This document shows positions 7,798-22,301 of a stretch of DNA of 64,000 nucleotides, in pieces. The stretch is from Verrucomicrobiaceae bacterium (GTDB lineage: Bacteria; Verrucomicrobiota; Verrucomicrobiia; Verrucomicrobiales; Verrucomicrobiaceae), in the NCBI GenBank assembly GCA_019694165.1, contig JAIBCL010000017.1:62001-126000 (forward strand), written 5' to 3'. Within the stretch, counting starts at the first letter, position 1, and the number at the start of each line of letters is the position of its first letter. The position numbers and the translations under genes are program-made. The notes beneath the pieces were generated by a model that was not told where the DNA came from, made no database searches, and saw only the letters and a program-made list of their open reading frames with translations.

Positions 7798-10425
7798 ATG
7801 AGTTTGCCTCGCTCCTCAGCCCTTGCCGTCGCCTGGAGTCTTGCTGCGCTCGCTCACGCATCGGCGAGCAGCTCTCCTCCGCAGGACATCAGCTTCACCG
7901 CCAGCATCGACGGCACGGAGCAGCGCTACGTCGAGCTTTTGCCGGAGCCGTTCGAGCCGATGCATGCGCATGATGTGGTGATCGCGCTGCATGGGCATGG
8001 ATCGGACCGCTGGCAGTTCATCAAGGACAACCGCGGCGAGTGCAAAGGCGTGCGCGACGCGGCGGCGAATCATGGGCTGATCGTCGTGTCGCCCGACTAC
8101 CGCGCGAAGACCTCGTGGATGGGTCCGAAGGCTGAGGCCGATGTGGCGCAGATCATCAGCGAGGTGAAAAAGCGGCATCATGTGAACCGCGTCTTCATCG
8201 CCGGCGGCTCGATGGGCGGCACCGGGGCGCTGACATTCGCAGCGCTGCACCCTGAACTGATCGCCGGTGTGTGCAGCCTCAACGGCACGGCGAATCTGGT
8301 CGAGTATGAAAAGTTCCAAGACGCGCGCACGGCCTCGTTTGGCGGCACGAAGGCGGAAGTGCCGGATGAATACAAGAAACGCAGCGCCGAATTCCGGCCG
8401 GAGAAGTTCACGATGCCGATCGCGCTGACGACTGGTGGCAAAGACACGACTATTCCTCCGCAGAGCGTGCTGCGTCTCGCTGACAAGCTGAAGCAAGCGA
8501 AGCACAAGGTGCTCAGCATTCATCGCGACGAGGGCGGACACTCGACCAACTACGAGGACACGATGGCGGCGATGGAGTTTGTGCTGAAAGAGGCAGGCGG
8601 CATCACCGCAGCGGAGCGCGGCTCATTCACGAAGGCGGCTGCTGCCAAGGCATCGTCTGACAACTCCGACCTCCGCGCCGATGTGGAAGTCTTTGGCAAA
8701 GGCATCACCTGGGCGCTGCGCTATGACACAGCGCTGCAAGCGAACGACCTCACGACGATCAAGCGTGCGCAAGACCGGCTGACGCAGCGTGCAAGTGCGC
8801 TGGCTTCAAATCTGAAACCCTGGACGACGAAGAAGGGCAAAATTGCGCGTGGTTTCATCTCGAAGGTGGATGGCACGGTGCAGCCGTATGGTGTCATCAT
8901 TCCCAAAAGCTACGACGACTCGAAGCCGATGCGGCTCGATGTCGTGCTGCATGGCAGCTCGAAGCCCGTGGGCATGAGCGAACTGAAGTTCATCAACCGT
9001 TTCGACGAAGGCGATGATGACAAAGGCAATGCGCCGGATGTGGACTACATCGAACTGCATCCGCTTGGTCGCGTGGAGAATTGCTACCGCTGGGCGGGCG
9101 AGACGGATGTGTTCGAGGCCATCGAAGCGGTTTGCCGGAACTACAAGATTGATCGCGACCGCATCGTGCTGCGCGGCATGAGCATGGGCGCGTCTGGCAC
9201 CTGGCATCTCGGTTTGAAGCATCCGGACCGCTTCGTCGCCATCGGGCCGTATTGCGGCTACGTCGATACACATCGCTTCTCCGAGACGCCGATTCCCGGC
9301 TTCATCAAGGTCGGTCCGCTGCCGCCGCACCAGGAGATCGGGCTGCACATGCTCGACTCCATCGACTACGCCGCAAACGCCGCCATGGTGCCCGAGATCG
9401 CGTGCATCGGCGACAAGGACACCTTCTTCCAGTCGCACGTCCACATGGGCGAGGTTTTTGCGAAGGAAGGCATTCCCTTCGTGAATCTCATATCGCCTGG
9501 CACCGGCCACGTCATCGATCCAAAGACGCACGCCGAGCAGATGCGACGCATCGGCGAATACGTGACCAAGGGTCTCGACCACGACCCGAAGCAGATGCGC
9601 TTCGTGACGTGGACGCTGAAATACAACCGCTGTCACTGGCTGGAACTGCTCGGTTTGGGCAAGCACTACGAGCGCGCGGAGTTTCGTGCGAGAGTGGGTG
9701 ATGGTGATGCGATGGACGTGAGCGAGGTGCGGAACATCACGCGCTTCGCGCTGCATCGGCCAGTTTCAAAACTGCGGATCGGCGGAACCGAAGTTGTGCT
9801 TCCAAAGCCGCCCGACGTCAAAGCCCTCGTGTTTTCCAAATACGGCGACATCTGGCGCTGCGATGGCTTGCGGGATGAAATCACGCTCACCGGCAGGCAA
9901 CCCGGCCTTCAAGGCCCCATCGACGATGCCTTTGCCACGCCATTCCTTTGCGTGCGTGGCACCGGCAGGCCGTGGAATGCCAAAGTGGACGCTTGGGCCC
10001 AGGAGAACCTCAAACGCGTCGAATACGAGTGGGCGCGCTACATGCGGGGCGATCTGCCGGTGAAGAACGACACCGATGTGACTGAGGCGGACGTGCGTGA
10101 CAAGCACCTCATCCTTTTCGGTGATCCCGGCAGCAACTCATGGATCACCAAAGCGCTGCCGAAGCTGCCGGTGAGTTGGACGCGCGAGGAACTTCGGCTC
10201 GGCAACCAGTTGCAATCGGCTGCTGATCACGCGCCTGCCTTCATCTGTGCAAGCCCGCTGGCTGCGAATCGCTACATCGTCATCAACAGCGGTCACACCT
10301 TTCACGAGGCCGAGTTCGCCGCCTTCAACTATCTCCTCTTCCCGCGGATGGGCGACTGGTCGGTGATGAACGTTGCGACCGGCGAGCCCCAGGCGGCCGG
10401 CTTTTTCGATGAGTCTTGGCGCTGA
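7798..10425 (+). CDS. Secreted protein with two alpha/beta-hydrolase domains
   Basis: 875 residues with a signal peptide (residues ~1-24, ending AHASAS). Domain 1 (about 40-270) has an esterase/dienelactone-hydrolase look: VVIALHGHGSD as oxyanion region, nucleophile elbow GGSMGG with S138, and a late GGHSTNYED. Domain 2 (about 340-600) repeats the fold with VVLHGSSKPVG and elbow GMSMGA with S462, then PGTGHVID. The last ~270 residues (620-875) form a further domain I cannot name, common after PHB-depolymerase-like or prolyl-oligopeptidase-like modules in these bacteria. The substrate is probably an exported ester or peptide; not determinable here. Confidence 0.72.
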   Translation: MSLPRSSALAVAWSLAALAHASASSSPPQDISFTASIDGTEQRYVELLPEPFEPMHAHDVVIALHGHGSDRWQFIKDNRGECKGVRDAAANHGLIVVSPDYRAKTSWMGPKAEADVAQIISEVKKRHHVNRVFIAGGSMGGTGALTFAALHPELIAGVCSLNGTANLVEYEKFQDARTASFGGTKAEVPDEYKKRSAEFRPEKFTMPIALTTGGKDTTIPPQSVLRLADKLKQAKHKVLSIHRDEGGHSTNYEDTMAAMEFVLKEAGGITAAERGSFTKAAAAKASSDNSDLRADVEVFGKGITWALRYDTALQANDLTTIKRAQDRLTQRASALASNLKPWTTKKGKIARGFISKVDGTVQPYGVIIPKSYDDSKPMRLDVVLHGSSKPVGMSELKFINRFDEGDDDKGNAPDVDYIELHPLGRVENCYRWAGETDVFEAIEAVCRNYKIDRDRIVLRGMSMGASGTWHLGLKHPDRFVAIGPYCGYVDTHRFSETPIPGFIKVGPLPPHQEIGLHMLDSIDYAANAAMVPEIACIGDKDTFFQSHVHMGEVFAKEGIPFVNLISPGTGHVIDPKTHAEQMRRIGEYVTKGLDHDPKQMRFVTWTLKYNRCHWLELLGLGKHYERAEFRARVGDGDAMDVSEVRNITRFALHRPVSKLRIGGTEVVLPKPPDVKALVFSKYGDIWRCDGLRDEITLTGRQPGLQGPIDDAFATPFLCVRGTGRPWNAKVDAWAQENLKRVEYEWARYMRGDLPVKNDTDVTEADVRDKHLILFGDPGSNSWITKALPKLPVSWTREELRLGNQLQSAADHAPAFICASPLAANRYIVINSGHTFHEAEFAAFNYLLFPRMGDWSVMNVATGEPQAAGFFDESWR

Positions 10426-10460
10426 GAGCCGGTCCGGTAATTCACTCGAACCACGAGAAC

Positions 10461-10654
10461 TCCACCCCCTCACCCCAGCCCTTTGCTGGACTTCTTTTGA
10501 AGCATCTTCTCCAGCCATCTCGCTGTCGCTCGGTTCCCCAGGGGAGCGGGAGACGAGGGCACCCCCACGCCACAACGAGAATCGTGTTTTGTCATTCGAG
10601 CGGCAGCCTGTTTTGCTCCCTCTCCCTGTGGGAGAGGGCTGGGGTGGGGGGAAG
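10461..10654. repeat. Intergenic inverted-repeat element in a gene-free stretch
   Basis: The 569-bp gap 10426-10994 has no convincing gene. In it, CACCCCAGCCCT (within 10466-10482) is the reverse complement of AGGGCTGGGGTG (10636-10647), so the two ends of a ~190-bp stretch can pair. Inside the right end lies a perfect hairpin, CCCTCTCCC-TGT-GGGAGAGGG at 10618-10638. CTCACCCCAGCC...GGGAGAGGGCTGGGGTG is a wording seen in dispersed intergenic palindromes of many GC-rich bacteria. The remaining ~340 bp before the kinase gene show only a ribosome binding site. Confidence 0.55.
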
Positions 10655-10981
10655 TTTCTGTTTGCTCCCACGCTTTCGTTTGCCTGGCTATGATGATTCA
10701 GCGCATTTGCCGGACAGGCTCTGAGGGACGGGATTGCGACCAGGGCACCATTCACGAACGGCGCGGCCTCGGCGTCCGTCACTCCTCCGCCCCTCGGCTG
10801 CGCAAAAGTGCGTCGTTACTGCGCGCATGACGGGTGAGTTCATCGGGGACGGGGACAAGCTTCTTGATTCACCGCATGGCTTGGCACATCATGAACGCCC
10901 TTCGTGCCGTCGCGAGTCTCCCGCACTGCGCCGGCACGACGGAGACTGAATCGACAGACACACATCAGGGAAAGCCGTTGC

Positions 10982-10986
10982 AGGAG
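10982..10986 (+). promoter_or_regulatory. Ribosome binding site of the kinase-homologue gene
   Basis: AGGAG, eight bases before ATG 10995. It supports that start, where the kinase glycine-rich loop begins at residue 15. Confidence 0.6.
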
Positions 10987-10994
10987 ATCATCGC

Positions 10995-13571
10995 ATGAGT
11001 TTGCCGGAAATCGCGGGACATGAATTGCAGGACTTGATCGGCAGCGGGAATTGCGGGGCCGTGTATCGCGCGGTGGCGACGGGAGGGCGGGCGTGTGCGG
11101 TGAAGGTATTCAGCGCGATGTCCATCAACCGCCGTGCGCTGGCCGCCACCGTGCGTCATCTGCAGCACATCCCGGCGCATCAGGGCGTGCAGCCAGTCCA
11201 CTCGTACAGCTTTGACCAGAGCCCCTATTTTGTGGTGACACCTCTGGTCGGAGTGATGACGAAGGACGAGCAAGGGCGCCGGCTGTGGCAGACGCCCACG
11301 CTGGAGCCGCTGTGCGGCCGCGTGCCGCAGGAGAAGGCCTGGAGCTACATCTACGAGATCGCCGACGCGCTCGCCTGGCTGCACAAGCACGGCATCCCTC
11401 ATGGAAACCTGCGGCCCGCGAACGTGCTCATCGAGGACGACCCTGGCTCGGCCACCCGCCTCACCGATGCCGGCCAGGGCTGGGTGGGCGGCATCCACCA
11501 CTTCCAGCTCGGCGACCACTGGATGCACCTGTGTCCGGACCACATCGAGGATCCCGACGGCGTGAACGGCGGCCAGGGCTGTTCATGGGATGTGTACAGC
11601 TTTGGCGTGCTGGCCTACCGCCTCCTGACGGGCAGGCTGCCGCGCGGCGAGCCGGTGTGGCTGGAGCAGCAGCAGATCGCGGCAAAGAAGGCCGCCTCCG
11701 GCCTGCCTTACGATCTGAACGGCGGCGCACTCCTGGCCGCCGTCCGGCACGACGTGCAGGTGGCCTGGCCCTCGCAGGCGGCCTCCAAGTGGGAGCAGCG
11801 CCGGCGCGACATCGTCCACCGCGCGCTCGATCTCGACCCCGCGGTGCGCTGGAAGGACATGCGCGAGGTGGTGCGTGAATTCGAACAGATGGAAGCGGAA
11901 TACCTGCTGGAGGATGCGCGCGCGCGCATCGAGCAGGAGAAAACGAAGCAGGCCGCCCGCGTGCGGAGGCTGCAGCTCGCGAGCGCAGGGCTGCTCGCCG
12001 GCCTCGGCGTGGCCGCGGCCCTGTTCGTCAGCACGCTCCTCCGGGCTAGAAAGGCGGAAGGGACCATCACTGCGAACTCGGCCGAGTACGCGAAGCAGAT
12101 CGATGCGCGCGAGCAGAAGATTTCCGGCCTCAGCACCGACCTCGCGCAAGCGCGAGACGCCAAGTCGCAGGCCGACGCGAATCTCCAGCACTCGCAGCGG
12201 GCGGTGGACGAGTTTTTGACACAACTGCTCGAAACACCCACCGGCAACGAGATGGAGGTCGAATTCTCCCGCAAGCAGCTCGAAGAGGCGCTGACCTTCG
12301 TCCAGCAGAGCCTGCCCGCGCTTGAAAAGTCTCCCCAGCTCGGGCCGGAGCGCGTGCGTGCCTATGGGAACATCGGCCGCATCCATTTGCACATGCACCA
12401 GACGGAGCAGGCGGCGAACTACCTGGAAAACGCGCGCAACCAGGCGGCGCAGTTGATCGAGCAAAACAGCGCCAGCCCTCACGCGGCGCTCTACCACCAG
12501 TGGCTGGGTCAGTACTGCCTCATGCTCTCCGACATCCGCTCGTCCCAGGGCAAGGGACCGGAATCCCTCGCGTTGCTCAAGGAGGCCACCTCGAATCTCG
12601 AAGCCGGTCTGGAGGCCGACAAAGGAAACCGCCTCGGCCGCTTCGAGTGCGCGCGCGCCTGGCTCGAGTTCGGCATCCGCTCCCGCGAGAATGGCGACAC
12701 GGCCGAGGCGCTCTCCGCTCTGGCGAAGGTGTCCGCCGTGCTCGACGTGAAGGTGGTCGGCTCAGAGCTGCTGGACGAGGAGCGCTTTCTCATCGCCCGC
12801 GCGAAATTCCAGCGCGGGCTGACCGAGCGGGACTCCAGCAAGTTTGAGGAGTCCGTGGCCACGATGCTCGATGCCGCGCAGGAGATGGGCGTGCTCGTCA
12901 CTGGCAGCGCCCCGCGCAATCAGGATCAGGCCCTGGCATTGGCCGCCGCCTATACGGAGGCGGCGGAAGTCATCGGAACGCACTTCGCCACCGCCGATGC
13001 CAAGGAAGCGCACCATCAGGCCGTGCCCATTCTGCTCGAGCTCAACCGCCTCCATCCTGAATGGGCCGAGGTGAAGTATCTCCTGGCGCGGAACTACGGC
13101 GCCATAGCCAGCCTCGAGCGCGACACGGGGAACGCCGCCGAGGCGCAGAAGAAGAAGCAGGACGCCATCGAGTTCATCAACGAAGTACTCGCCGACAACA
13201 AGGACAACCCCCGCTACATCTTCCTGCTGGCTCGGCTGCGCGGCGAGTATGCCGAGCTGATCGCCGACCTGGGCAAGGCCAAGGATGCCGTGCCCATCGT
13301 CAAGCAGGCGGTCGAGAGCCTGGAAAAGCTCCTCGCGGCCAGCCCTGAAGCGAAGCCGACACCGGAGCGCAAGACGTGGGAGATGCAGCTTGCCCAGCTC
13401 TACTGCGTGCTTGGTCACTCCAGCGAAAGCGCCAATCAGAAAGAACTCGCCCGCACGTCCTTCACCACCGCCGCCCGCCACTGGGAAAAACTCGCCGCAG
13501 CCAACGCCGGAGATGAAGCCATCCAGCAGGGCCTGAACTGGACAAAGAACCGGCTTCAGAAGCTGAAGTGA
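10995..13571 (+). CDS. Ser/Thr kinase-like membrane protein with TPR domain (probable pseudokinase)
   Basis: 858 residues. The Hanks-type kinase fold spans about 8-300: glycine loop IGSGNCGAVYRA, ATP lysine K37 in ACAVKVF, and WDVYSFGVLAYRLLTG. The catalytic loop reads HGNLRPAN, with Asn138 where active kinases have the catalytic Asp. The metal-binding motif is D158-A-G rather than DFG, with its Asp kept. A transmembrane helix (~327-349, LASAGLLAGLGVAAALFV) precedes a coiled coil and TPR-like helices to the C-terminus, probably periplasmic. PknB-type receptors with TPR ectodomains are abundant in this phylum. It may bind ATP and signal without phosphotransfer. Confidence 0.8.
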   Translation: MSLPEIAGHELQDLIGSGNCGAVYRAVATGGRACAVKVFSAMSINRRALAATVRHLQHIPAHQGVQPVHSYSFDQSPYFVVTPLVGVMTKDEQGRRLWQTPTLEPLCGRVPQEKAWSYIYEIADALAWLHKHGIPHGNLRPANVLIEDDPGSATRLTDAGQGWVGGIHHFQLGDHWMHLCPDHIEDPDGVNGGQGCSWDVYSFGVLAYRLLTGRLPRGEPVWLEQQQIAAKKAASGLPYDLNGGALLAAVRHDVQVAWPSQAASKWEQRRRDIVHRALDLDPAVRWKDMREVVREFEQMEAEYLLEDARARIEQEKTKQAARVRRLQLASAGLLAGLGVAAALFVSTLLRARKAEGTITANSAEYAKQIDAREQKISGLSTDLAQARDAKSQADANLQHSQRAVDEFLTQLLETPTGNEMEVEFSRKQLEEALTFVQQSLPALEKSPQLGPERVRAYGNIGRIHLHMHQTEQAANYLENARNQAAQLIEQNSASPHAALYHQWLGQYCLMLSDIRSSQGKGPESLALLKEATSNLEAGLEADKGNRLGRFECARAWLEFGIRSRENGDTAEALSALAKVSAVLDVKVVGSELLDEERFLIARAKFQRGLTERDSSKFEESVATMLDAAQEMGVLVTGSAPRNQDQALALAAAYTEAAEVIGTHFATADAKEAHHQAVPILLELNRLHPEWAEVKYLLARNYGAIASLERDTGNAAEAQKKKQDAIEFINEVLADNKDNPRYIFLLARLRGEYAELIADLGKAKDAVPIVKQAVESLEKLLAASPEAKPTPERKTWEMQLAQLYCVLGHSSESANQKELARTSFTTAARHWEKLAAANAGDEAIQQGLNWTKNRLQKLK

Positions 13572-13651
13572 GACGGGGAAGACATGCCATGGGTTGCGGA
13601 CTGCGGGCGATGCCCCCGCGACTCACCACCCCGGCCTCCTCATGCTCACCA

Positions 13652-14167
13652 TCACTCCTTGAGCACACGCTTGATGTCCTCCGCCTGCTGGTCGGTGGCG
13701 GCCTTGGCATCATGCCAGACGATGCGGCCGTTCTTGATGAGGAAGCACTGGCGCGTGGCGAGGCCGACGAGGGGCATGCGGTCCACTTTGAACGCCTCAA
13801 GCACCTTGCCGTCCGGGTCGGCGATCAGGTCGAAGGGCAGCTTGTGGTCCGTGATGAATTTCTTCTGCGCATCCGGCCTGTCCACGGATACGCCGAGCAC
13901 CTGCACGCCCTGTTTCGAGAGTTCGTCAAAGGCATCACGCAGACTGCATGCCTGCCGCGTGCAGCCTGGTGTGTTCGCCTTCGGATAAAAGAAAACCACC
14001 GTCGGCCCCTTCGCGTACACATCGGCGAAGCTGACGATCTTGCCGTCCTGGTTCGTGCCGCCGACTTGTGGCGCGGGCAGATCCACTTTCTCGCCCTGCC
14101 CTGCGTGTGCCGGTGATCCCAGCACACTGGCAAGCGTGAGGCCGACAAGTTTGACGAAACGCTTCAT
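13652..14167 (-). CDS. Exported peroxiredoxin, BCP/PrxQ type
   Basis: 171 residues from ATG 14167; an ATG at 14182 would add five residues. MKRFVKLVGLTLASVLGSPAHA is a good signal peptide, so the enzyme should act in the periplasm. The thioredoxin-like fold has peroxidatic C69 in NTPGCT and C74 five residues later (TPGCTRQAC), the atypical two-Cys arrangement of BCP/PrxQ enzymes that reduce hydroperoxides. FFYPKA and VSVDRPDAQKKF are further family blocks. It is convergent with the kinase gene (80 bp between stops) and appears monocistronic. Confidence 0.85.
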   Translation of the reverse strand: MKRFVKLVGLTLASVLGSPAHAGQGEKVDLPAPQVGGTNQDGKIVSFADVYAKGPTVVFFYPKANTPGCTRQACSLRDAFDELSKQGVQVLGVSVDRPDAQKKFITDHKLPFDLIADPDGKVLEAFKVDRMPLVGLATRQCFLIKNGRIVWHDAKAATDQQAEDIKRVLKE

Positions 14168-14339
14168 GATCGGGTGTGACATCGGTTTCTCTGCAAAACG
14201 TCACGCGTCCGCGCGGCGGTTGCAAAAATGACGGCGTAGCGTCACAAACGCGCGCGCTGCCGCTCCTGCCTCCGCCGGCTCAGTCCGCCGGAAATGCGCT
14301 TGCGGGAAGGCGCGGGAGTTTCATCATCCGCCCCTCACA

Positions 14340-15089
14340 ATGAAACGAACCGCCTTTTCCATCCTCGCCGTGGCCGTCACCGGCCTTGCCTCCAGCGCCT
14401 TCGCGGAAGCCCCGCCAAACTACGCCGTCATGCCCGTCTTGCATCCCGGCACGGAAAAGCGGCACGAGTCCTTCAATGAGATCTCGAAGAAGGGAGAGGC
14501 ACAGCTCGTCTTCCTCGGCGACTCGATCACGCACGGCTGGGAGTCCAAAGGCAGGGCGGTGTGGGAAAAGTACTGGGCTCCGCTCCAGGCGGCGAACTTC
14601 GGCATCGGCGGCGACCGGACGGAGCATGTGCTCTGGCGCCTGCAGCATGGCAATTACGACGGTCTCAAACCAAAGCTCACCGTCCTGATGATCGGCACGA
14701 ACAACACGGGCCACCAAGGCCGCGCACAGAAGGAACTCGACGGCGCGGTCTATCAATGCACGGCGGAGCAGACGGCCGCGGGCGTGAAGCAGATCGTCGG
14801 CACGCTGAAAGAGAAATGCCCCGGCATGAAGATTCTCATCCTCGGCATCTTTCCGCGCGGCCCCGACGCCGCCGACAAGCTGCGCCAGCAGAACGAAGCG
14901 ACGAATGCCCTCATCTCGAAGCTGGCCGACGGCAGCACGGTCCACTACCTGGACATCGGCAGAACCTTCCTCACGCCGGAAGGCGTGCTCTCAAAGGACA
15001 TCATGCCCGATCTCCTGCATCCGAACGAAAAGGGCTACGAACTGTGGGCCCAGGCCATCGAGAGCCGGGTGAAGGAGCTGCTCAAGTAG
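14340..15089 (+). CDS. Secreted SGNH/GDSL hydrolase (PAF-acetylhydrolase-like)
   Basis: 249 residues with a signal peptide (MKRTAFSILAVAVTGLASSAFA). All SGNH blocks are visible: VFLGDSITHG with nucleophile S62, the Gly block FGIGGDRT, VLMIGTNNTG with the Asn, and the C-terminal DLLHPNEKGY giving D224 and H227. The closest style is the platelet-activating-factor acetylhydrolase beta/gamma type used widely in Verrucomicrobiota and Planctomycetota as carbohydrate acetyl-esterases. A strong intrinsic terminator follows the stop, so it is probably a single-gene unit. Confidence 0.88.
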   Translation: MKRTAFSILAVAVTGLASSAFAEAPPNYAVMPVLHPGTEKRHESFNEISKKGEAQLVFLGDSITHGWESKGRAVWEKYWAPLQAANFGIGGDRTEHVLWRLQHGNYDGLKPKLTVLMIGTNNTGHQGRAQKELDGAVYQCTAEQTAAGVKQIVGTLKEKCPGMKILILGIFPRGPDAADKLRQQNEATNALISKLADGSTVHYLDIGRTFLTPEGVLSKDIMPDLLHPNEKGYELWAQAIESRVKELLK

Positions 15090-15109
15090 CGAACGGACGA
15101 CTCTTCCCG

Positions 15110-15141
15110 GGCCGGGCCGCGCGAGCGGTCCGGCCTTTTTT
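15110..15141 (+). terminator. Rho-independent terminator after the SGNH hydrolase gene
   Basis: A ten-pair stem (GCCGGGCCGC / GCGGTCCGGC, one G-U pair) with a GCGA loop at 15111-15134, then C and six T. It begins 21 bases after the stop at 15089. Confidence 0.85.
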
Positions 15142-15252
15142 GTCGGCTCGCTTGGTGGTGGATGGGGCGCAGGTCAAGGCGCTGCACGCCAAGATTGCCG
15201 TGGACTTGACGGCGGGCGCGCGTTGTTTCCCGCGCCACATTGCCCGGCGCCC

Positions 15253-15762
15253 ATGAACACATCGGTCCCTCCACCCCTGCCTCCGGTTCCTGAATCGCGC
15301 TCGCGTTTCGTCACTGTCCTGGCGTGGGTGGTGATGGTCGTCAGCGGACTCTCACTGCCGATTGCGGGCCTGTCATTCCTCATGGTGCTGGCCGGCAGTC
15401 CCGGCACCCGGCACTCCGATCCGCTCGGATTCCTCACCGTCGTGTGCGGTCCTCCGGCGTTTCTCATCACCGGCTTCGGCCTGCTGCGCCGTCACCGCTG
15501 GGCGTGGCTCGCCATGCTTGTGATGCTCGGCCTCATGATCGTATCGAACGTCGGAATGATGCTCCGCAGTTCATCGGATACCGAGGCTTTCACCTCACCG
15601 GACGGGGTGCGGACCACGGTGCTCTCGGCAGGCGGCATCTACTGGTTCTACGCGCTGGTGTTCGTCGCGATTTGCGCCGGCATGACGGCAAAACTTTTGT
15701 CACCCCATGTGCGCAGGGAGTTTCACGAGCAGGGTGCGGTATCGGCAAAATCAGACGAGTAG
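15253..15762 (+). CDS. Small integral membrane protein, unknown function
   Basis: 169 residues from ATG 15253; the open frame starts at 15223, but the Pro-rich cytosolic leader MNTSVPPPLPPVPESRS is a more usual start in this phylum. Four hydrophobic segments (about 20-45, 59-78, 86-105 and 130-150) predict an inner-membrane protein. No catalytic motif is seen. It is transcribed alone, between a terminator and an inverted-repeat element. Confidence 0.6.
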   Translation: MNTSVPPPLPPVPESRSRFVTVLAWVVMVVSGLSLPIAGLSFLMVLAGSPGTRHSDPLGFLTVVCGPPAFLITGFGLLRRHRWAWLAMLVMLGLMIVSNVGMMLRSSSDTEAFTSPDGVRTTVLSAGGIYWFYALVFVAICAGMTAKLLSPHVRREFHEQGAVSAKSDE

Positions 15763-15800
15763 CTTCCGGAAGCCGCCCGCGCGGCGGCCGTCCATACCGA

Positions 15801-16077
15801 TTCTCAAAATGAATGTCATTTTGCCCACCCACCACCGGGAGGTCTCGATTTGCGAGGGACTGTCTCTGACGCCCGCCTGCGCCCTCAGCCGATGTTCCGA
15901 AGGCCGACGGCCTTCTGTCTTCCAGCCCAAGGGTTCGCGCAGCAGAACCCTTGGGCCTAATGACACAAGCCCGCTGGGCATTGAAGAGGAATGCCGGTTC
16001 TCAAGCTGCATCGTTGTGTCACGCTGGCCTGATCCTGGTCCTTTTTGCGAACCCCAATCCGACAAACATTTTGAGAA
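15801..16077. mobile_element. 277-bp element with 17-bp terminal inverted repeats (MITE-like)
   Basis: TTCTCAAAATGAATGTC at 15801-15817 and GACAAACATTTTGAGAA at 16061-16077 are inverted copies with 15 of 17 matches. The left end also forms its own hairpin, CAAAATGA-ATG-TCATTTTG (15805-15823). The interior has a perfect 12-bp stem (15925-15936 with 15945-15956, 8-nt loop) and the short palindrome GAAGGCCGACGGCCTTC. No credible ORF lies inside and no target duplication is evident. It fills the gap between two convergent gene ends, with its right end six bases from a stop codon, so it could instead be a bidirectional terminator structure. Confidence 0.5.
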
Positions 16078-16082
16078 CATGT

Positions 16083-16646
16083 CTATTTCCCTGCCGGCCC
16101 CAGCTCGAACAGAAAACTCGTCTCGCCGGGAAAGAGGACGGAGAAGCGCGGTTGCTCCACGCCCTCGAGGTAGTTCCGGAAAATGACGGCAAACTTGGCC
16201 TCCTTCATCGCCTTCAACCGCCAGCCTGTCGCACCCGCGGGTGTCTTTGTCTTCCAGGTGCAAATGAGCATGACCGGATCCTCGTCGGTCTTGAGCGGTG
16301 CCTCGTTAATGCCCGAGAACTCGACGCCGAACTCCGGCTCCACCTTGCCACCCGGCTCGAAGACGAACTCGATGCTGGTCTTGATCAGGTCGCGGGCTAG
16401 CTTTCGCAATTCGTCCTTCCGTTCGGGCGTCATGGCTTCGAGCGCCCGCTTCACCGTGTAGGGCGTGGTGCCGGCCTCAGCCACGAAGCAGCGCGGATCC
16501 AGTTCGATCGTCACCGTGCAGGCGCCGTCCTTCATGAATTGCGTCCGCACAGGGATGTCCGGCTCGGGATGCGCACCGGCTGGAAACGCGGCAAGCGCCA
16601 GCACAACGTGCACGACGGCGGCAAGGAAGGGACGGGGCGGTTTCAT
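16083..16646 (-). CDS. Secreted protein of unknown function
   Basis: 187 residues; the signal peptide (~1-25) ends AAFPAGAHPEPD. The mature chain alternates beta-like and charged helical stretches (ALEAMTPERKDELRKLARDLIKT, here shown only in part as LEAMTPERKDELRKL) with one Cys in GACTVTIELD and others in DPRCF and MLICTW. I do not recognise a family. It stands alone on the minus strand, divergent from the small secreted protein at 16746 with a 99-bp gap for both promoters. Confidence 0.6.
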   Translation of the reverse strand: MKPPRPFLAAVVHVVLALAAFPAGAHPEPDIPVRTQFMKDGACTVTIELDPRCFVAEAGTTPYTVKRALEAMTPERKDELRKLARDLIKTSIEFVFEPGGKVEPEFGVEFSGINEAPLKTDEDPVMLICTWKTKTPAGATGWRLKAMKEAKFAVIFRNYLEGVEQPRFSVLFPGETSFLFELGPAGK

Positions 16647-16745
16647 GATTTTGTGTTTGTGTGCAACGACGCTTTATGAACAATCGTATCCCAGACGCGC
16701 AACGACAATCCTTGCGCATTTCAACCCAACCCAATCCACACACCC

Positions 16746-17015
16746 ATGAAGAACATCCTCTCACTCATCGCCATCGCATCCCTGGCCGCCGGCAGCGCCT
16801 TTGCCGGCTGCGGCAAGATCGACACCACGGAAGGCAAGCTCAAGTCCTACAACGCCGAGACCAAGGTGGCCGTCGTTGAGACCAAGGACAAGAAGACCGT
16901 GAACGTCACGCTGACCCCGACCTCGAAGGGCGGCGAAGGCGTTGACAAGCTCGTCGGCAAGAAGGTCAAGGTCCTCGCCAGCCACGGCAAGGTGACCGAG
17001 ATCGGCAAATCGTAG
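16746..17015 (+). CDS. Small secreted protein, unknown function
   Basis: 89 residues with a clear signal peptide (MKNILSLIAIASLAAGSAFA, then GCGK). The mature ~68 residues are Lys-rich, begin with two Cys (GCGKIDTTEGKLKSYN), and have repeated short beta strands (KVAVVETKDKKTVNVTL), suggesting a small OB- or SH3-like barrel. A strong terminator follows. No family name can be given. Confidence 0.7.
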   Translation: MKNILSLIAIASLAAGSAFAGCGKIDTTEGKLKSYNAETKVAVVETKDKKTVNVTLTPTSKGGEGVDKLVGKKVKVLASHGKVTEIGKS

Positions 17016-17046
17016 TCCCCGCCGCGCAATCCTTTGCGCGCGTTGA

Positions 17047-17080
17047 AGCCCGGTGGTCCGCCACCGGGCTTTTTGTTTTT
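17047..17080 (+). terminator. Rho-independent terminator after the small secreted protein
   Basis: A perfect ten-pair stem AGCCCGGTGG / CCACCGGGCT with a TCCG loop (17047-17070), followed by TTTTGTTTTT. It lies 31 bases after the stop. Confidence 0.92.
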
Positions 17081-17092
17081 CGATCCCGCGCC

Positions 17093-17245
17093 CAGGGCTT
17101 GCGCATGAACCGAAAGCGACAGCCTCAAATCTATGATTTGCCCCGCAAGATTCAGGATCCCACAGATGGGTTCAGAAGAAGTCCAATCCGTGGTCGTCCT
17201 GAATCCATGGGAATTCACTCGGAAGCAATTCGTGCGCAAGCCCTG
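17093..17245 (+). mobile_element. MITE-like element, copy A (153 bp)
   Basis: Ends are CAGGGCTTGCGCATGAA (17093-17109) and TTCGTGCGCAAGCCCTG (17229-17245), inverted repeats with 16 of 17 matches. A second nested pair, GATTCAGGA (17149-17157) and TCCTGAATC (17197-17205), lets the whole element fold on itself. Copy C (34501-34655) is about 90% identical over its full length in inverted orientation; copy B (24902-25055) is more diverged. No transposase is encoded, and short ORFs crossing the element (MNRKRQPQIYDLP...) are by-products of the repeat. Confidence 0.8.
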
Positions 17246-17298
17246 TCCCGTGCCTGGTTTTGTTTTGCGCGTGGCGACGCCCGGGGCAGACTCACTGC

Positions 17299-17568
17299 AT
17301 GAACCCCCCGACATCTGAAGCACCGAACCTCAATCACGGCACGCAGCCGCTGGACGCCATCATGGCCGGTCACCATCTCGGCAACCACGACCTCGTCGCC
17401 GTCAGCGACGAGCCGCTCACGCACAAGGCCGTGCAGCGCGCGCGCAAGGGGCGCGAGCTGACCTCGCACATGCGCAGGCGGGTGGCCGCCGCACTGAACA
17501 AGGCCCTCGCCCGCAAAGGTGCGGCGATGGAGCGCGAGCTGCAGGTGCGGGACCTGTTTTCGTACTGA
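17299..17568 (+). CDS. Small conserved-looking cytoplasmic protein, unknown function
   Basis: 89 residues from ATG 17299, which lies 53 bp beyond repeat copy A. The N-terminal third is Asn/Pro-rich; the rest is basic and helical (LTHKAVQRARKGRELTSHM, RRRVAAALNKALARKG), suggesting a small helix-turn-helix or nucleic-acid binding protein. I know no named family. It is convergent with the DUF1549 gene (32 bp between stops). Confidence 0.55.
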   Translation: MNPPTSEAPNLNHGTQPLDAIMAGHHLGNHDLVAVSDEPLTHKAVQRARKGRELTSHMRRRVAAALNKALARKGAAMERELQVRDLFSY

Positions 17569-17600
17569 CCCACGGCCGGCAGTGCAGCGCGCAGGTCAGC

Positions 17601-19886
17601 CTACTCGATGAAGAAGAACTGCCGCGTGTTCAGCACGGCCCAGAACGCGTCACCTTTGCCGGTGACGCCCTTGCCTTCGATGACCGGGCGCAGGAGCGCC
17701 TTCTCCTCGTCGGTGGCCTTGCGGCTCATGAGCGCGAGGTAGATGGCATCCGCAGTCTGCTCCGGCGTCTCGGCGCGGTGCAGCGCGCGGGAGATCATGG
17801 TGAAGGGGTTCATCAAGTTGCCGAAAATCTTGCCGTTCAGCAGCATGAGAGCCTGGCCCACCGTCGCTTCGCTGCTGGCATTTTCCACCAGCTCCCGGTC
17901 GCTCTGGCCGAACTCACGCAGGAAGTGACCGTTCGGCGCGGGCGAGCGCACGTCGGCGGCCCGGATCATGAAATTGTCACGGTAGTTTTCCCAGGCTTTG
18001 AGCGAGGCGCGCTCCTTGTCGTCATCGACCTTGAGCTGCTCGGCATCGCGCTTGAAGCGGGCCTTCTGCTGCTCGGTGATGCGCGCGTGCTGCTGGCGGG
18101 CCACGACGGCGAGCGCGTCGTCGATGTCGAGGTCGGCCCCGTTCTTGCCTTTGATCACGCTGGCGATCTCCTGGGCAAACTCCTGATCGTCCATCTGCTC
18201 CTTGAGCTTCCCGTCACGGGCCAGCTCGGCAAATTTCTTGAAGCCCATGGTGAAGACCACGTCCTCGACGGCTTCGTCGATGCGCTTGCGCTGGCCCGAC
18301 ACGATTTTTTTCGCGGCGCGGATGGCGTCTTCGTCGTGGTTCTTGTTCGCCTCGGTGAGCTTTTCCTGAGCCTTGCGCACATCGGCGGCCAGTTGCTTCT
18401 GCACCTGCGCCACCTTGATGGCGCCGGCCTTCAATTCATCAGGGCTCAGTTCGTTCAACGAGCGGTCGAGCCATTCGATCTTCCTGAGTGCGATGTCGGA
18501 ATCGACCCGTGTGTTCACACTGGGCTGGTCGGGACTCGGCTTGTAAAGCGTGACCATGCTGTCCCATATCTGCTCGGCGCTCATGCGGCGCACCAGGGGG
18601 CCGGGGAAATGGAACACGTCGCCCAGTTCCACGTCCTTCGTCCATGCAGCGCGCTGGTAGGCGGCGCTCTTGTAGAGCAGCCCGAGGTAGGCCTTCAAGT
18701 CGTAGTTCAGCTCCTTCATCGTGTTTTCGAGGAAGGTCAGAAGCGCGGGATTGCTCGGCACGGTGGAGTCCGTGATCTGATCCACGGGCTCGATGAGGCC
18801 CATGCCCATCACCTTCTTCCAAAGCCGGTTGGCGATCACGGTGGTGAAACGCGGATTGTCCTTCGAGGTCAGCCACTTCGCGTAGGCGTCGATCGGTTGC
18901 TGGCCGGCCTGCGTGATCTTGCCATCCTTCGCGAAGGCGGTGGGTATCGTCGGCTCGATGACCTGGTTCGGCTTTGCATCTTCGTATTTGTAGTCGTGCG
19001 GAAGCTTCAATGAGCGCTTCTTCGTCTCATCGAGCACCGTCGTGTAGCGCAGCGGGCGCAGGATCTCGCTCATGGCCTTGCCGATGTCCTTGCGCTCCAC
19101 ACCCTCGGGCAGCTCCATTTTCGAGACGGTGCCGCTGGATTTGGCCTTCTTGCTTTTCGGAGCGCCGCCGCCGTAGAGTGCCTGGGCGAGGAGCGGATTG
19201 GAGAGGCCGTTGGTGCCCGTCATGCCGTAGCTGTGCGCGGCCATCTGGTAGTAGTCGAGCTGCGTCCACTTGTCGAAGGGGTGGTTGTGGCACTGCGCGC
19301 ACACCATGCTGGTGCCGAGGAAGATCTGCGTCGTGACCGCCATGTTATCCAGCGGCATGTTGTAGTCGCGGATGTAGAAGCCGATCGCGCCGTTCTCATA
19401 CGCCTTGCCGTCGGCCGTGAGCAGCTCGCGCACCATCTGGTCGTAGGGCTTGTTCGCGGCGAGAGAGTCCTTCAGCCACTTGATGTAGGCGTGCCCGGCC
19501 GCGGAGCTGTTCCCGCCGCCCACGCTCTGGCTCTTGAGACGCAGGATGTCCGCCCAGTAATTGAAGGCGCTCTGCTCGTAGCCGTCGGAGTCCAGCAGGT
19601 GGTCGATGAGCTTCGCCCGTTTGTCGGCCGATTTGTCGGCGAGGAAATCCGTCGTCTCCTTGATCGACGGGATGCGCCCCGCGATGTCGAGGTAGATGCG
19701 GCGGACAAAAACTTCGTCGGAGATCGGCCCGGTGGGCTTGAGGTTTTGCTTCGCGAGATTCGCATCGACGAGCTTGTCGATCTGCGCGGTGACGGCCCTG
19801 GCATCCATGCCGGCGGCAGCCGGAGCATGGAACAGGGCCGCGAGGAACGTCGCGCACAAGATGCCGGAGAACAGGTGAGGCTTCAT
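17601..19886 (-). CDS. Secreted DUF1549/DUF1553 protein (no N-terminal cytochrome domain)
   Basis: 761 residues from ATG 19886; the open frame extends much further upstream but only this start gives a signal peptide (MKPHLFSGILCATFLAALFH, then APAAAG). DUF1549 follows at once (FVRRIYLDIAGRIPSIKETT, SAFNYWADILRLK) and contains VCAQCHNHPFDKW, a CxxCH motif. DUF1553 lies in the second half (VIANRLWKKVMGMGLIEPVD, near residue 350, and VGQALMLLNG near 685), separated by a long charged coiled-coil-like stretch. Unlike the other three such genes here it lacks the PSCyt1 haem domain. Function of the family is unproven; it is secreted and numerous in Planctomycetota and Verrucomicrobiota. Confidence 0.85.
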   Translation of the reverse strand: MKPHLFSGILCATFLAALFHAPAAAGMDARAVTAQIDKLVDANLAKQNLKPTGPISDEVFVRRIYLDIAGRIPSIKETTDFLADKSADKRAKLIDHLLDSDGYEQSAFNYWADILRLKSQSVGGGNSSAAGHAYIKWLKDSLAANKPYDQMVRELLTADGKAYENGAIGFYIRDYNMPLDNMAVTTQIFLGTSMVCAQCHNHPFDKWTQLDYYQMAAHSYGMTGTNGLSNPLLAQALYGGGAPKSKKAKSSGTVSKMELPEGVERKDIGKAMSEILRPLRYTTVLDETKKRSLKLPHDYKYEDAKPNQVIEPTIPTAFAKDGKITQAGQQPIDAYAKWLTSKDNPRFTTVIANRLWKKVMGMGLIEPVDQITDSTVPSNPALLTFLENTMKELNYDLKAYLGLLYKSAAYQRAAWTKDVELGDVFHFPGPLVRRMSAEQIWDSMVTLYKPSPDQPSVNTRVDSDIALRKIEWLDRSLNELSPDELKAGAIKVAQVQKQLAADVRKAQEKLTEANKNHDEDAIRAAKKIVSGQRKRIDEAVEDVVFTMGFKKFAELARDGKLKEQMDDQEFAQEIASVIKGKNGADLDIDDALAVVARQQHARITEQQKARFKRDAEQLKVDDDKERASLKAWENYRDNFMIRAADVRSPAPNGHFLREFGQSDRELVENASSEATVGQALMLLNGKIFGNLMNPFTMISRALHRAETPEQTADAIYLALMSRKATDEEKALLRPVIEGKGVTGKGDAFWAVLNTRQFFFIE

Positions 19887-19993
19887 GAGGATGAAAGGGG
19901 GCGGAAACTGGCTGCTTTGAACGACCTGCCGCCGGGCGTCTTTCACTGTTTTGTCCGCCCGTCGATCGCGATCCGGACGAAGTGGCAACGCGC

Positions 19994-20569
19994 TCACACC
20001 AGCGCCATGAACGCCTCGCGCACCTGCGCCTGCCACTTCGCGAGATAGGCCAGCTTTGCCTGGAGAATCTGCATGTCGCGCATCACGCCCGCATCGGCGG
20101 CGGCGCGGCGGGCGTCGATCTCGGGAAGCCGGCTTTCCAGTGTTTCGCGCAGGGCGGACAGCTCGGCGGCACGTTCCTCGGCGGTCTCGCGCAGTTTCAT
20201 TTCCTCGCCGGAGAGCAGCGCCTTCGCCAGCGCACTGGTGGCGGACTGCCTTTTCCGCGCGTGGTCGCCGATGCTGTGGACGAACGGAGCGATCTTGTCG
20301 AAGAGCGTCATCATCGCCTCGTCGAGCGGGATCGTCTTCCACGCGCGCGCCGCTTCGTCGGCTTCCAGCGCGATGAGATGCTTCAGCCGCTTTTCCGGCG
20401 CGGAGAGAGTTTCAAACGCGGCATTCAGCGCGGTCGATTGGTGCTCGTCGCCCGTCGCCTGATCGGGATGCGCGTCGCGCGTGCGGCTCGTGTAGGCCCG
20501 CTTGAGCGTCTCTTCATCGAGCGCCGCTGTGCGCGGCAGGCCGAGCGTGGCGAAGTGATCCGTCACCAT
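19994..20569 (-). CDS. hscB: HscB-like J-domain co-chaperone for Fe-S cluster transfer
   Basis: 191 residues. The N-terminal J-domain has the HPD motif at 34-36 (RDAHPDQA), and the C-terminal half is the three-helix HscB oligomerisation/IscU-binding region (LLSGEEMKLRETAEERAAEL). HscB stimulates HscA/Hsp70 to release clusters from the scaffold. It is six bases downstream of the A-type carrier gene on the same strand, confirming the pathway. No hscA, iscU or iscS is nearby, so it probably works with a general DnaK or a distant HscA. Confidence 0.82.
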   Translation of the reverse strand: MVTDHFATLGLPRTAALDEETLKRAYTSRTRDAHPDQATGDEHQSTALNAAFETLSAPEKRLKHLIALEADEAARAWKTIPLDEAMMTLFDKIAPFVHSIGDHARKRQSATSALAKALLSGEEMKLRETAEERAAELSALRETLESRLPEIDARRAAADAGVMRDMQILQAKLAYLAKWQAQVREAFMALV

Positions 20570-20575
20570 GATCGC

Positions 20576-20950
20576 TCAGGCCGCAAAGCTCTCGCCGCAC
20601 GAGCAGGTGACGACGGCGTTCGGGTTCTTCACCTTGAAGCCGCCGGACTGCAGGTCGTCACTGTAATCAAGCTCCGAGCCGGTCACGAAGAGGGCGCTCT
20701 TCGGGTCGATGACGACGCGCACGTCGCTGGAGACCACCATGATGTCGCGATTCGCGGGGCCATCGACGAGGTCCATTTTGTACTGCAGCCCCGAGCAGCC
20801 GCCGCCGACGACGGCAATGCGCAGCGCGCCGTTTTCCGCGCGCCCCTGCTTGCGCAGCAGGCCGAGCAGGCGGTCCGATGCGTTCGGCAGCAGCTTGATG
20901 AGCTTCTCGTTGCCCAGCTTGTACTGAGGTTCTGTGCGGAGGGCCTCCAT
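20576..20950 (-). CDS. iscA: A-type iron-sulfur cluster assembly/carrier protein
   Basis: 124 residues from ATG 20950. The three ligand cysteines of the IscA/ErpA/SufA family are present: C52 in GGGCSGLQY and C116/C118 in TCSCGESF. Such proteins carry 2Fe-2S or 4Fe-4S clusters to apo-targets. The frame is open further upstream, but the fold begins here. It is the first gene of an operon with hscB (6-bp gap). The exact subtype (IscA, ErpA or SufA) cannot be settled from this sequence. Confidence 0.9.
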   Translation of the reverse strand: MEALRTEPQYKLGNEKLIKLLPNASDRLLGLLRKQGRAENGALRIAVVGGGCSGLQYKMDLVDGPANRDIMVVSSDVRVVIDPKSALFVTGSELDYSDDLQSGGFKVKNPNAVVTCSCGESFAA

Positions 20951-21143
20951 GGCGGGCGGTGATGTTCGGGTGATGATCCTTTTTCGCAAGCACGACGTGC
21001 CTGGGACAGTACGATTTCTCTTGCTGACTGGATGTTGCCGCTCATCAACGTGCACCGCCAGGATGGGATGCCGGCCCGCGATTTGCTGACCGGCGCATTC
21101 CTTCGCGAACCGCCGCCGTCCGAACCGAACTTCCTTCCCCGCC

Positions 21144-21533
21144 ATGCCCATCTACGGAACTGCCCTCCTCGCCGCCTGCCACATGCTGGGCATCGTGCTA
21201 GGCGACCTGCTCGGACGCGCGCTCGGCATGACGACGAATGTCGGCGGCGTAGGCATCGCGATGATCCTGCTCATCACGTCGCGCTGCTGCCTGCACAAGA
21301 GCGGAAGACTCTGCGCGAACTCGGAGAGCGGCGTCCACTACTGGGGCGCGATCTACATCCCGGTCGTGGTCGCGATGGCGATGCAGCAAAACATGGTGGC
21401 AGCCTTGAGCGGCGGGCCGATGGCGCTGATCGCAGCCGCGGCCAGCGTGGTGGTGTGCGGGTGCTTCGTCGCCTTCATCAACCGCATGGAGCCTGAGCAG
21501 GCCGGGGCCGGCAGCCACGACGAACCCCGCTGA
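21144..21533 (+). CDS. madL: Malonate transporter subunit MadL
   Basis: 129 residues with four hydrophobic segments. The start MPIYGTALLAACHMLGIVLG is characteristic of MadL, the small subunit of the MadLM sodium-malonate symporter. It is followed after three bases by madM, forming a two-gene unit. No malonate decarboxylase genes are in this window. Confidence 0.9.
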   Translation: MPIYGTALLAACHMLGIVLGDLLGRALGMTTNVGGVGIAMILLITSRCCLHKSGRLCANSESGVHYWGAIYIPVVVAMAMQQNMVAALSGGPMALIAAAASVVVCGCFVAFINRMEPEQAGAGSHDEPR

Positions 21534-21536
21534 GCC

Positions 21537-22301
21537 ATGTGGGACATCCTTGAAAAGGCCGCGAAGGAGAACGGGCTCGTCACCGCCTTCGCCATCGTGG
21601 GACTGGTGATCGTGCTCTCGGGTTTCATCTCGCGGAGGCTGACGTTCGGCCGCGTGCAGGGCTCGGCCATCGCGATTCTCATCGGGCTTGCGCTGGCGTA
21701 TGCGGGCGGACGCTGCACGGGTGGCTCCAAAGGCCTGGCGGACATGGCCTTCTTCAGTGGCATCGGTTTGATGGGCGGCAACATGCTGCGCGACTTCGCC
21801 ATCGTGGCGACGGCGTTTGAGGTGCATCCCGAAGAAGCCAGGCGGGCGGGCTGGGTGGGCGCCGTCGCCTTGATGCTCGGCACGGTGCTGCCATTCGTCG
21901 TGGGTGTATCGGTCGCATGGGGCTTTGGCTATCGCGATGCCGTGAGCCTCACCACCCTGGGTGCGGGCGCCATCACTTACATCGTCGGACCGGTGACCGG
22001 CGCGGCCATCGAGGCGAAGTCAGACGTGATGGCACTGAGCATCGCCACCGGCGTGATCAAGGCCATCCTCGTCATGGTCGCCACGCCTGCCGCTGCGAAA
22101 TTCCTGCGCCTGAGGACGCCGCGCTCCGCGATGGTCTTCGGCGGTCTCGCCGGCACCGTCAGCGGTGTAAGCGCCGGCCTCGCCGCCACTGACCGCAGGC
22201 TCGTCCCCTATGGCGCGCTGGTGGCCACCTTCCACACCGGGATCGGCTGTTTGCTGGGGCCGTCGGTCTTGTTCTTTGCGGTGAAGGCGCTGGTGGGGTG
22301 A
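21537..22301 (+). CDS. madM: Malonate transporter subunit MadM
   Basis: 254 residues, about seven or eight membrane segments. NGLVTAFAIVGLVIVLSGFI, GIGLMGGNMLRDFAIVATAF and GAGAITYIVGPVTGAAIEAK are typical of MadM, the large subunit of the malonate:Na+ symporter. Three bases separate it from madL. Without decarboxylase genes nearby, the imported acid must be used by enzymes encoded elsewhere, or the substrate may differ. Confidence 0.9.
   Translation: MWDILEKAAKENGLVTAFAIVGLVIVLSGFISRRLTFGRVQGSAIAILIGLALAYAGGRCTGGSKGLADMAFFSGIGLMGGNMLRDFAIVATAFEVHPEEARRAGWVGAVALMLGTVLPFVVGVSVAWGFGYRDAVSLTTLGAGAITYIVGPVTGAAIEAKSDVMALSIATGVIKAILVMVATPAAAKFLRLRTPRSAMVFGGLAGTVSGVSAGLAATDRRLVPYGALVATFHTGIGCLLGPSVLFFAVKALVG

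Follow-up and report, generated by a model that had tools for sequence, protein, structure and literature searches.

Nezha of cyanobacteria is of the IS630 type. RUP of Streptococcus pneumoniae and the Correia elements of Neisseria are IS630-type MITEs, too. In the parts of the literature cited here they are described as gene-less, intergenic and multicopy, with short ends common to IS630-family ISs and with insertion at TA (PMC2229807, PMC2817692, PMC3733652). According to the cited part of its report, the inverted repeats of ISY100, a member of the IS630 family, are imperfect and 24 bp long, its insertions fall almost exclusively at TA, and the outer 30 bp on either side suffice for movement (PMC2170065). 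Movement of a passenger enclosed by ends of this kind is therefore plausible. A second class of small repeat, the REP, belongs with the RAYTs; according to the cited part of one source, a RAYT always lies between two inverted REPs (PMC2817692).

The element analyzed in this study lies in a window of 64,000 nucleotides (the whole stretch of DNA that was analysed) from a bacterium that probably belongs in or near Prosthecobacter, a genus of Verrucomicrobiota. Like RUP and the Correia elements, it has no gene of its own, has IS630-type ends and has spread between genes in multiple copies. It is unlike them, as far as the cited parts of those sources describe them, in its copy number (7 copies versus 108 for RUP), its imperfect TA flanks and the presence of a second-class repeat inside. 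It shares with ISY100 the 24-nt imperfect ends and, putatively, insertion at TA; ISY100 encodes its own transposase. The best explanation, to which we assign a probability of roughly 0.82, is that the element is a non-autonomous IS630-type (Tc1/mariner-like, DDE) MITE shell carrying a RAYT-type hairpin module, amplified as one unit. Its assignment to the MITE class is well supported. No published account of this element, of MITEs in this group, or of a MITE with a RAYT module was found in a search of titles and abstract openings that mostly covered papers outside subscription.

The element and its copies in the genome

An earlier note had described positions 15801-16077 as a 277-bp unit bounded by an inverted repeat, without a gene, with strong internal hairpins and placed between two convergent stop codons. 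The arms, 15801-15817 and 16061-16077, are 17 nt long and 243 nt apart, and they are indeed complementary at 15 of 17 positions. When the 480-bp region was shuffled 300 times with its dinucleotides preserved, a comparable pair (150-350 nt spacing) arose in one shuffle. The part of the window from 10001 to 22000 holds five such inverted-repeat matches at three sites, and at least one was present in 24 of 60 shuffles of the same 12 kb. The inverted repeat alone is therefore only moderately unlikely, and we judge the element to be real because it recurs at seven genomic places, not because of the inverted repeat itself. At 10466-10651 of the window there is a further pair of 17-nt inverted repeats, complementary at 16 positions and with arms about 150 nt apart.

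The internal hairpins proved as strong as had been claimed, with an MFE of -105.6 kcal/mol (z = -3.74) and none of 200 shuffles equally stable. Two long frames across the element gave no Pfam match and no transposase gene was found inside, in agreement with a gene-less stretch. The left frame ends at 15762 and the minus-strand right frame at 16083, which places the unit between convergent stops as described. The unit itself is a real repeat, but its extent had to be revised. Alignment of the copies showed that the full unit is 289 bp (15795-16083), reaching 6 nt past the previously noted ends on either side. The features of the locus are as follows.

15223..15762, plus strand: left neighbour frame of 179 aa, without a match in Pfam
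15793..15794, unstranded: left flanking dinucleotide CA, where TA is expected for a duplicated target
15795..15818, plus strand: left 24-nt MITE end, agreeing with the left end of the C16 IS at 20 of 24 positions and kept in 6 of 7 copies
15795..15898, plus strand: left arm of the MITE shell; the part beyond the end was not found outside its own genome among the matches listed
15899..15985, plus strand: remnant of the hairpin module (in the long copies the complete module measures about 240 bp)
about 15922-15956, plus strand: one intact hairpin within the module remnant, spanning the deletion
15986..16083, plus strand: right arm of the MITE shell, from the alignment of copies and the family-wide search
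15991..16011, plus strand: internal stretch 76% like the left end (direct repeat D1) by sequence comparison, possibly the remnant of another MITE end
16060..16083, minus strand: right 24-nt MITE end, agreeing with the right end of the C16 IS at 18 of 24 positions
16083..16646, minus strand: right neighbour frame of 187 aa, without a match in Pfam
16084..16085, unstranded: right flanking TA, also part of the stop codon of the right gene

The genome-wide search that had been proposed was carried out on the own genome (G000; 7,800,692 bases, 66 contigs). It revealed seven copies in all, at separate places: C10 (the window copy), C14, C64, C57, C47, C58 and C6. Neither the lack of a second copy nor the poorly conserved ends that had been named as the outcome against a repeat unit were found. 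The flanks of the seven copies are not alike and the copy edges are sharp. Pairwise identity ranges from 90.7 to 95.4% over all 21 pairs, and from 91.0 to 95.4% over the 15 pairs without C64, in which the left end is lost. The other six copies keep both ends. Four copies are long (C57 and C58, 436 bp; C6, 438 bp; C47, similar with a diverged right end) and three are short (C10, 289 bp; C14, 281 bp; and C64). In addition, C40 carries a solitary 38-bp right end, with the rest of the element absent. The element was not matched in G001, one other genome of the same genus.

Two further observations concern the surroundings of the copies. The left flank of C14 (L009) and the right flank of C47 (L012) are the 5' and 3' parts of one gene, of which a paralogue, C38 (L240), is uninterrupted. 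Recombination between MITE copies, or misassembly at the repeats, would fit this split gene. Since misassembly may be the cause, we do not claim recombination. Another dispersed repeat, about 155 bp long with inverted ends, lies at 17092-17245 (minus strand) of the window; with 40 of 90 candidates scored, it gave at least 41 matches in the genome. The C57 and C58 copies each adjoin a cut-off copy of this repeat.

Shared ends and a probable partner IS

A search of the own genome with the end sequence, allowing up to two mismatches, gave 24 matches, versus 4 for the reversed control. These matches include a 1,198-bp element (C16:131099-132296) and a fragment at C12. In an ungapped comparison over 24 nt, the left and right ends of the window element agree with those of the C16 IS at 20 and 18 positions, respectively. 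The C16 IS is flanked by TA at either end. Pfam DDE_3 matches its transposase frames, as does, below its cut-off, the NCBIfam model transpos_IS630 (NF033545). Frame changes and an insert have disrupted the IS, which is, together with the fragment, the sole IS with these ends found in the own genome. The DNA examined at the four other DDE_3 loci of this genome showed no such end. The insert, about 70 bp long (L081, about 1688-1760), is partly palindromic and is absent in the C12 fragment and in the ISs of relatives.

Sequence related to the C16 IS at E values up to 1e-10 was found in 13 of 239 genomes of the order. Related ISs with the same kind of ends and a long open transposase frame are present in G059 (346 codons), G031 (346 codons) and G062 (367 codons). 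An IS630-family transposase made elsewhere would be a candidate to bind the 24-nt ends, excise the element and paste it at TA.

With one mismatch allowed, the end pattern matched in 30 of 68 family genomes, and the reversed control pattern gave 1-3 matches in 19 of 68. Since the control reaches three matches, the clear signal is limited to the 17 genomes with more than three. Examples of the counts are 47 in G009, 44 in G023, 38 in G007, 34 in G059, 28 in G008 and 13 in the own genome. Several of the family genomes are rich in a MITE of about 165 bp whose ends are of the same type. In G023, its left and right ends each agree with those of the window element at 20 of 24 positions. It differs from the window element in that the interior is unlike beyond the ends, there is no module, and TA is found on both sides in most cases. 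Facing ends 163-165 bp apart had TA on both sides at 17 of the 20 places fetched, which were chosen among the matches listed from G007, G008, G009, G018 and G023 and are not all independent, since two of the species, G007 and G009, share some of the insertions.

Target site and neighbouring genes

The target site of the window element was analyzed on the basis of the flanks of all copies. The dinucleotide on the left is CA in 4 of 6 and TA in 2 of 6 copies. On the right it is TA in three, CA in two and TG in two of the seven, that of C47 being read from the alignment of copies since its end carries a deletion. The window copy has CA on the left and TA on the right, and no copy has TA on both sides. 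The flanks would have changed more than the 5-9% divergence of the copies suggests, and this is the main weakness of the MITE interpretation.

At three of the four sites compared, the uninterrupted counterpart reads TA. The paralogue C38, which spans the meeting point of the C14 left and C47 right flanks, reads TA. The G001 homologue of the right gene has a TAG stop at the place matching the window insertion, a comparison based on the stop codon, as the last few codons differ. The paralogue C22 reads TA at the start of the C6 copy, with sequence differences close by. The C64 site departs from this, the homologue in both G001 and G017 having GA there instead of TA. The seven copies, the ends common to an IS630-family IS and the TA in three of four uninterrupted counterparts support the suggestion of a second MITE family made in the earlier note.

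A search of the genome collection with the protein of the right neighbour found a single relative, from a Prosthecobacter debontii MAG, at 52% identity; the bacterium is probably a species of this genus or close to it. The stop codon of this gene, TAG at 16083-16085, is composed of the last base of the element and the flanking TA, and at C14 the stop codon of the neighbour is made up likewise. The window insertion would have hit the TA of the right gene's stop, with the element end rebuilding TAG, so that both neighbour frames are still closed by a stop. The site between two stop codons is taken as a tolerated insertion.

The hairpin module and its relation to a Y1 transposase

A family-wide search with the long form (438 bp) as the query gave matches in 41 of 68 genomes, including the own genome. 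Outside the own genome, the matches listed lie at query positions 90-354, most of them within 100-345, and the shell arms were not found among them. Alignment showed that the matched part is a module of about 240 bp with its own inverted hairpin ends, which occurs without the MITE ends in other family genomes. The module is placed identically within the shell in all seven copies. From this identical position we infer a single entry: the module would have entered the shell once and then multiplied as a passenger. Three copies, including that of the window, lack the module centre and would have lost it later. Inspection of the alignment by eye placed the deletions of C10 and C14 between short direct repeats of the module hairpins, with one hairpin left; the junction in C64 is less clear.

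A motif pattern retrieved no Y1 proteins, and L300 and L301 supplied the seeds instead. A Y1 frame of one clade was present at 5 of the 17 module loci of a first set, chosen without regard to a transposase (one of the frames partial), and at 6 of the 20 of a second set, two of these six having been chosen for it. In total, one Y1 (RAYT-type) clade was found at 11 of 37 module loci fetched, including the two so chosen. In the own genome, the frame at C50:103089-103556 matches Y1_Tnp at 2.2e-19 and is flanked by inverted module hairpins at 102947-102999 (minus strand) and 103623-103674 (plus strand). We considered and dropped a link of the module to Y1 transposases at large, since the family's 30 best Y1 loci are all without the module; the association concerns one clade only.

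The paired hairpins that flank a Y1 frame in inverted orientation liken the module to the RAYT-associated REP/BIME repeats. The module is unlike REP/BIME in its length of about 240 bp, its several hairpins and its location, in the own genome, mostly inside a MITE. No GTAG/GTGG head at the hairpin foot was seen by eye in nine aligned modules, and the module is therefore not filed as a GTAG REP.

Alternative interpretations

It is worth noting that there are other possible interpretations of the unit. Since other family genomes contain the module without the shell, and since it adjoins a Y1 clade, the whole unit might be for the most part a RAYT-type (REP/BIME-like) cluster of hairpins that owes its spread to a Y1 transposase, the outer inverted repeat being incidental. 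However, the copies have the outer arms in common, and their edges coincide with the IS630-like ends, not with the module. The confinement of the shell arms to the own genome among the matches listed argues in the same direction. This interpretation is already disfavoured and we regard it as very improbable. The earlier note had also considered an exapted bidirectional terminator, and the position between convergent stops and the long perfect hairpin would suit an element that now serves two convergent genes in this way. A scan for a G+C-rich hairpin with a T run, however, detected no terminator-like site in 15700-16180 on either strand. Only three of the seven copies (C10, C14 and C64) have convergent genes or gene fragments on their two sides, and those around the remaining four are co-oriented, as judged by eye with the homology of the frames checked in part. 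Several copies, moreover, adjoin broken or truncated genes. With the pattern scan negative, the terminator was rejected; such a role seems very improbable.

The stability of the long form, which folds beyond its shuffles (z = -6.39; 0 of 100), and pair-keeping double changes in 10 of 60 consensus pairs among nine module sequences could point to a gene for a structured RNA. The covariation term of 0.07, however, amounts to no support, and the upkeep of palindromes at the DNA level accounts for the pairing. The centre of the putative RNA is lost in three of the seven copies, and no Rfam 15 model matched over its gathering score at the element. The only Rfam 15 match in the window was a single tRNA elsewhere, and the long copy C58 with its flanks gave two chance-level matches to microRNA models, far below the gathering score. 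The RNA gene was rejected on these Rfam and covariation results, and we consider it extremely improbable.

Implications of the joined element

The IS630-type MITE shell with its RAYT-type module would bring two chemistries together in one unit. We tentatively propose, at somewhat less than even odds, that a hairpin repeat maintained by a HUH/Y1 transposase of the RAYT type, which acts on single strands, rides a cut-and-paste DDE IS630-type MITE and so gains copies without an enzyme of its own, and that the hairpins in turn shape their carrier through the deletions that give the short form. What we say of transposition, of the order of events and of any function is deduced from sequence comparison.

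The present analysis documents, in relatives of Prosthecobacter (Verrucomicrobiota), a family of IS630-type MITEs and identifies its probable mobilising IS. A further result is a gene that still ends in TAG although its stop codon received the insertion. The joining of a DDE-type shell and a RAYT-type module makes it testable whether the small repeats of one class spread by riding on another.
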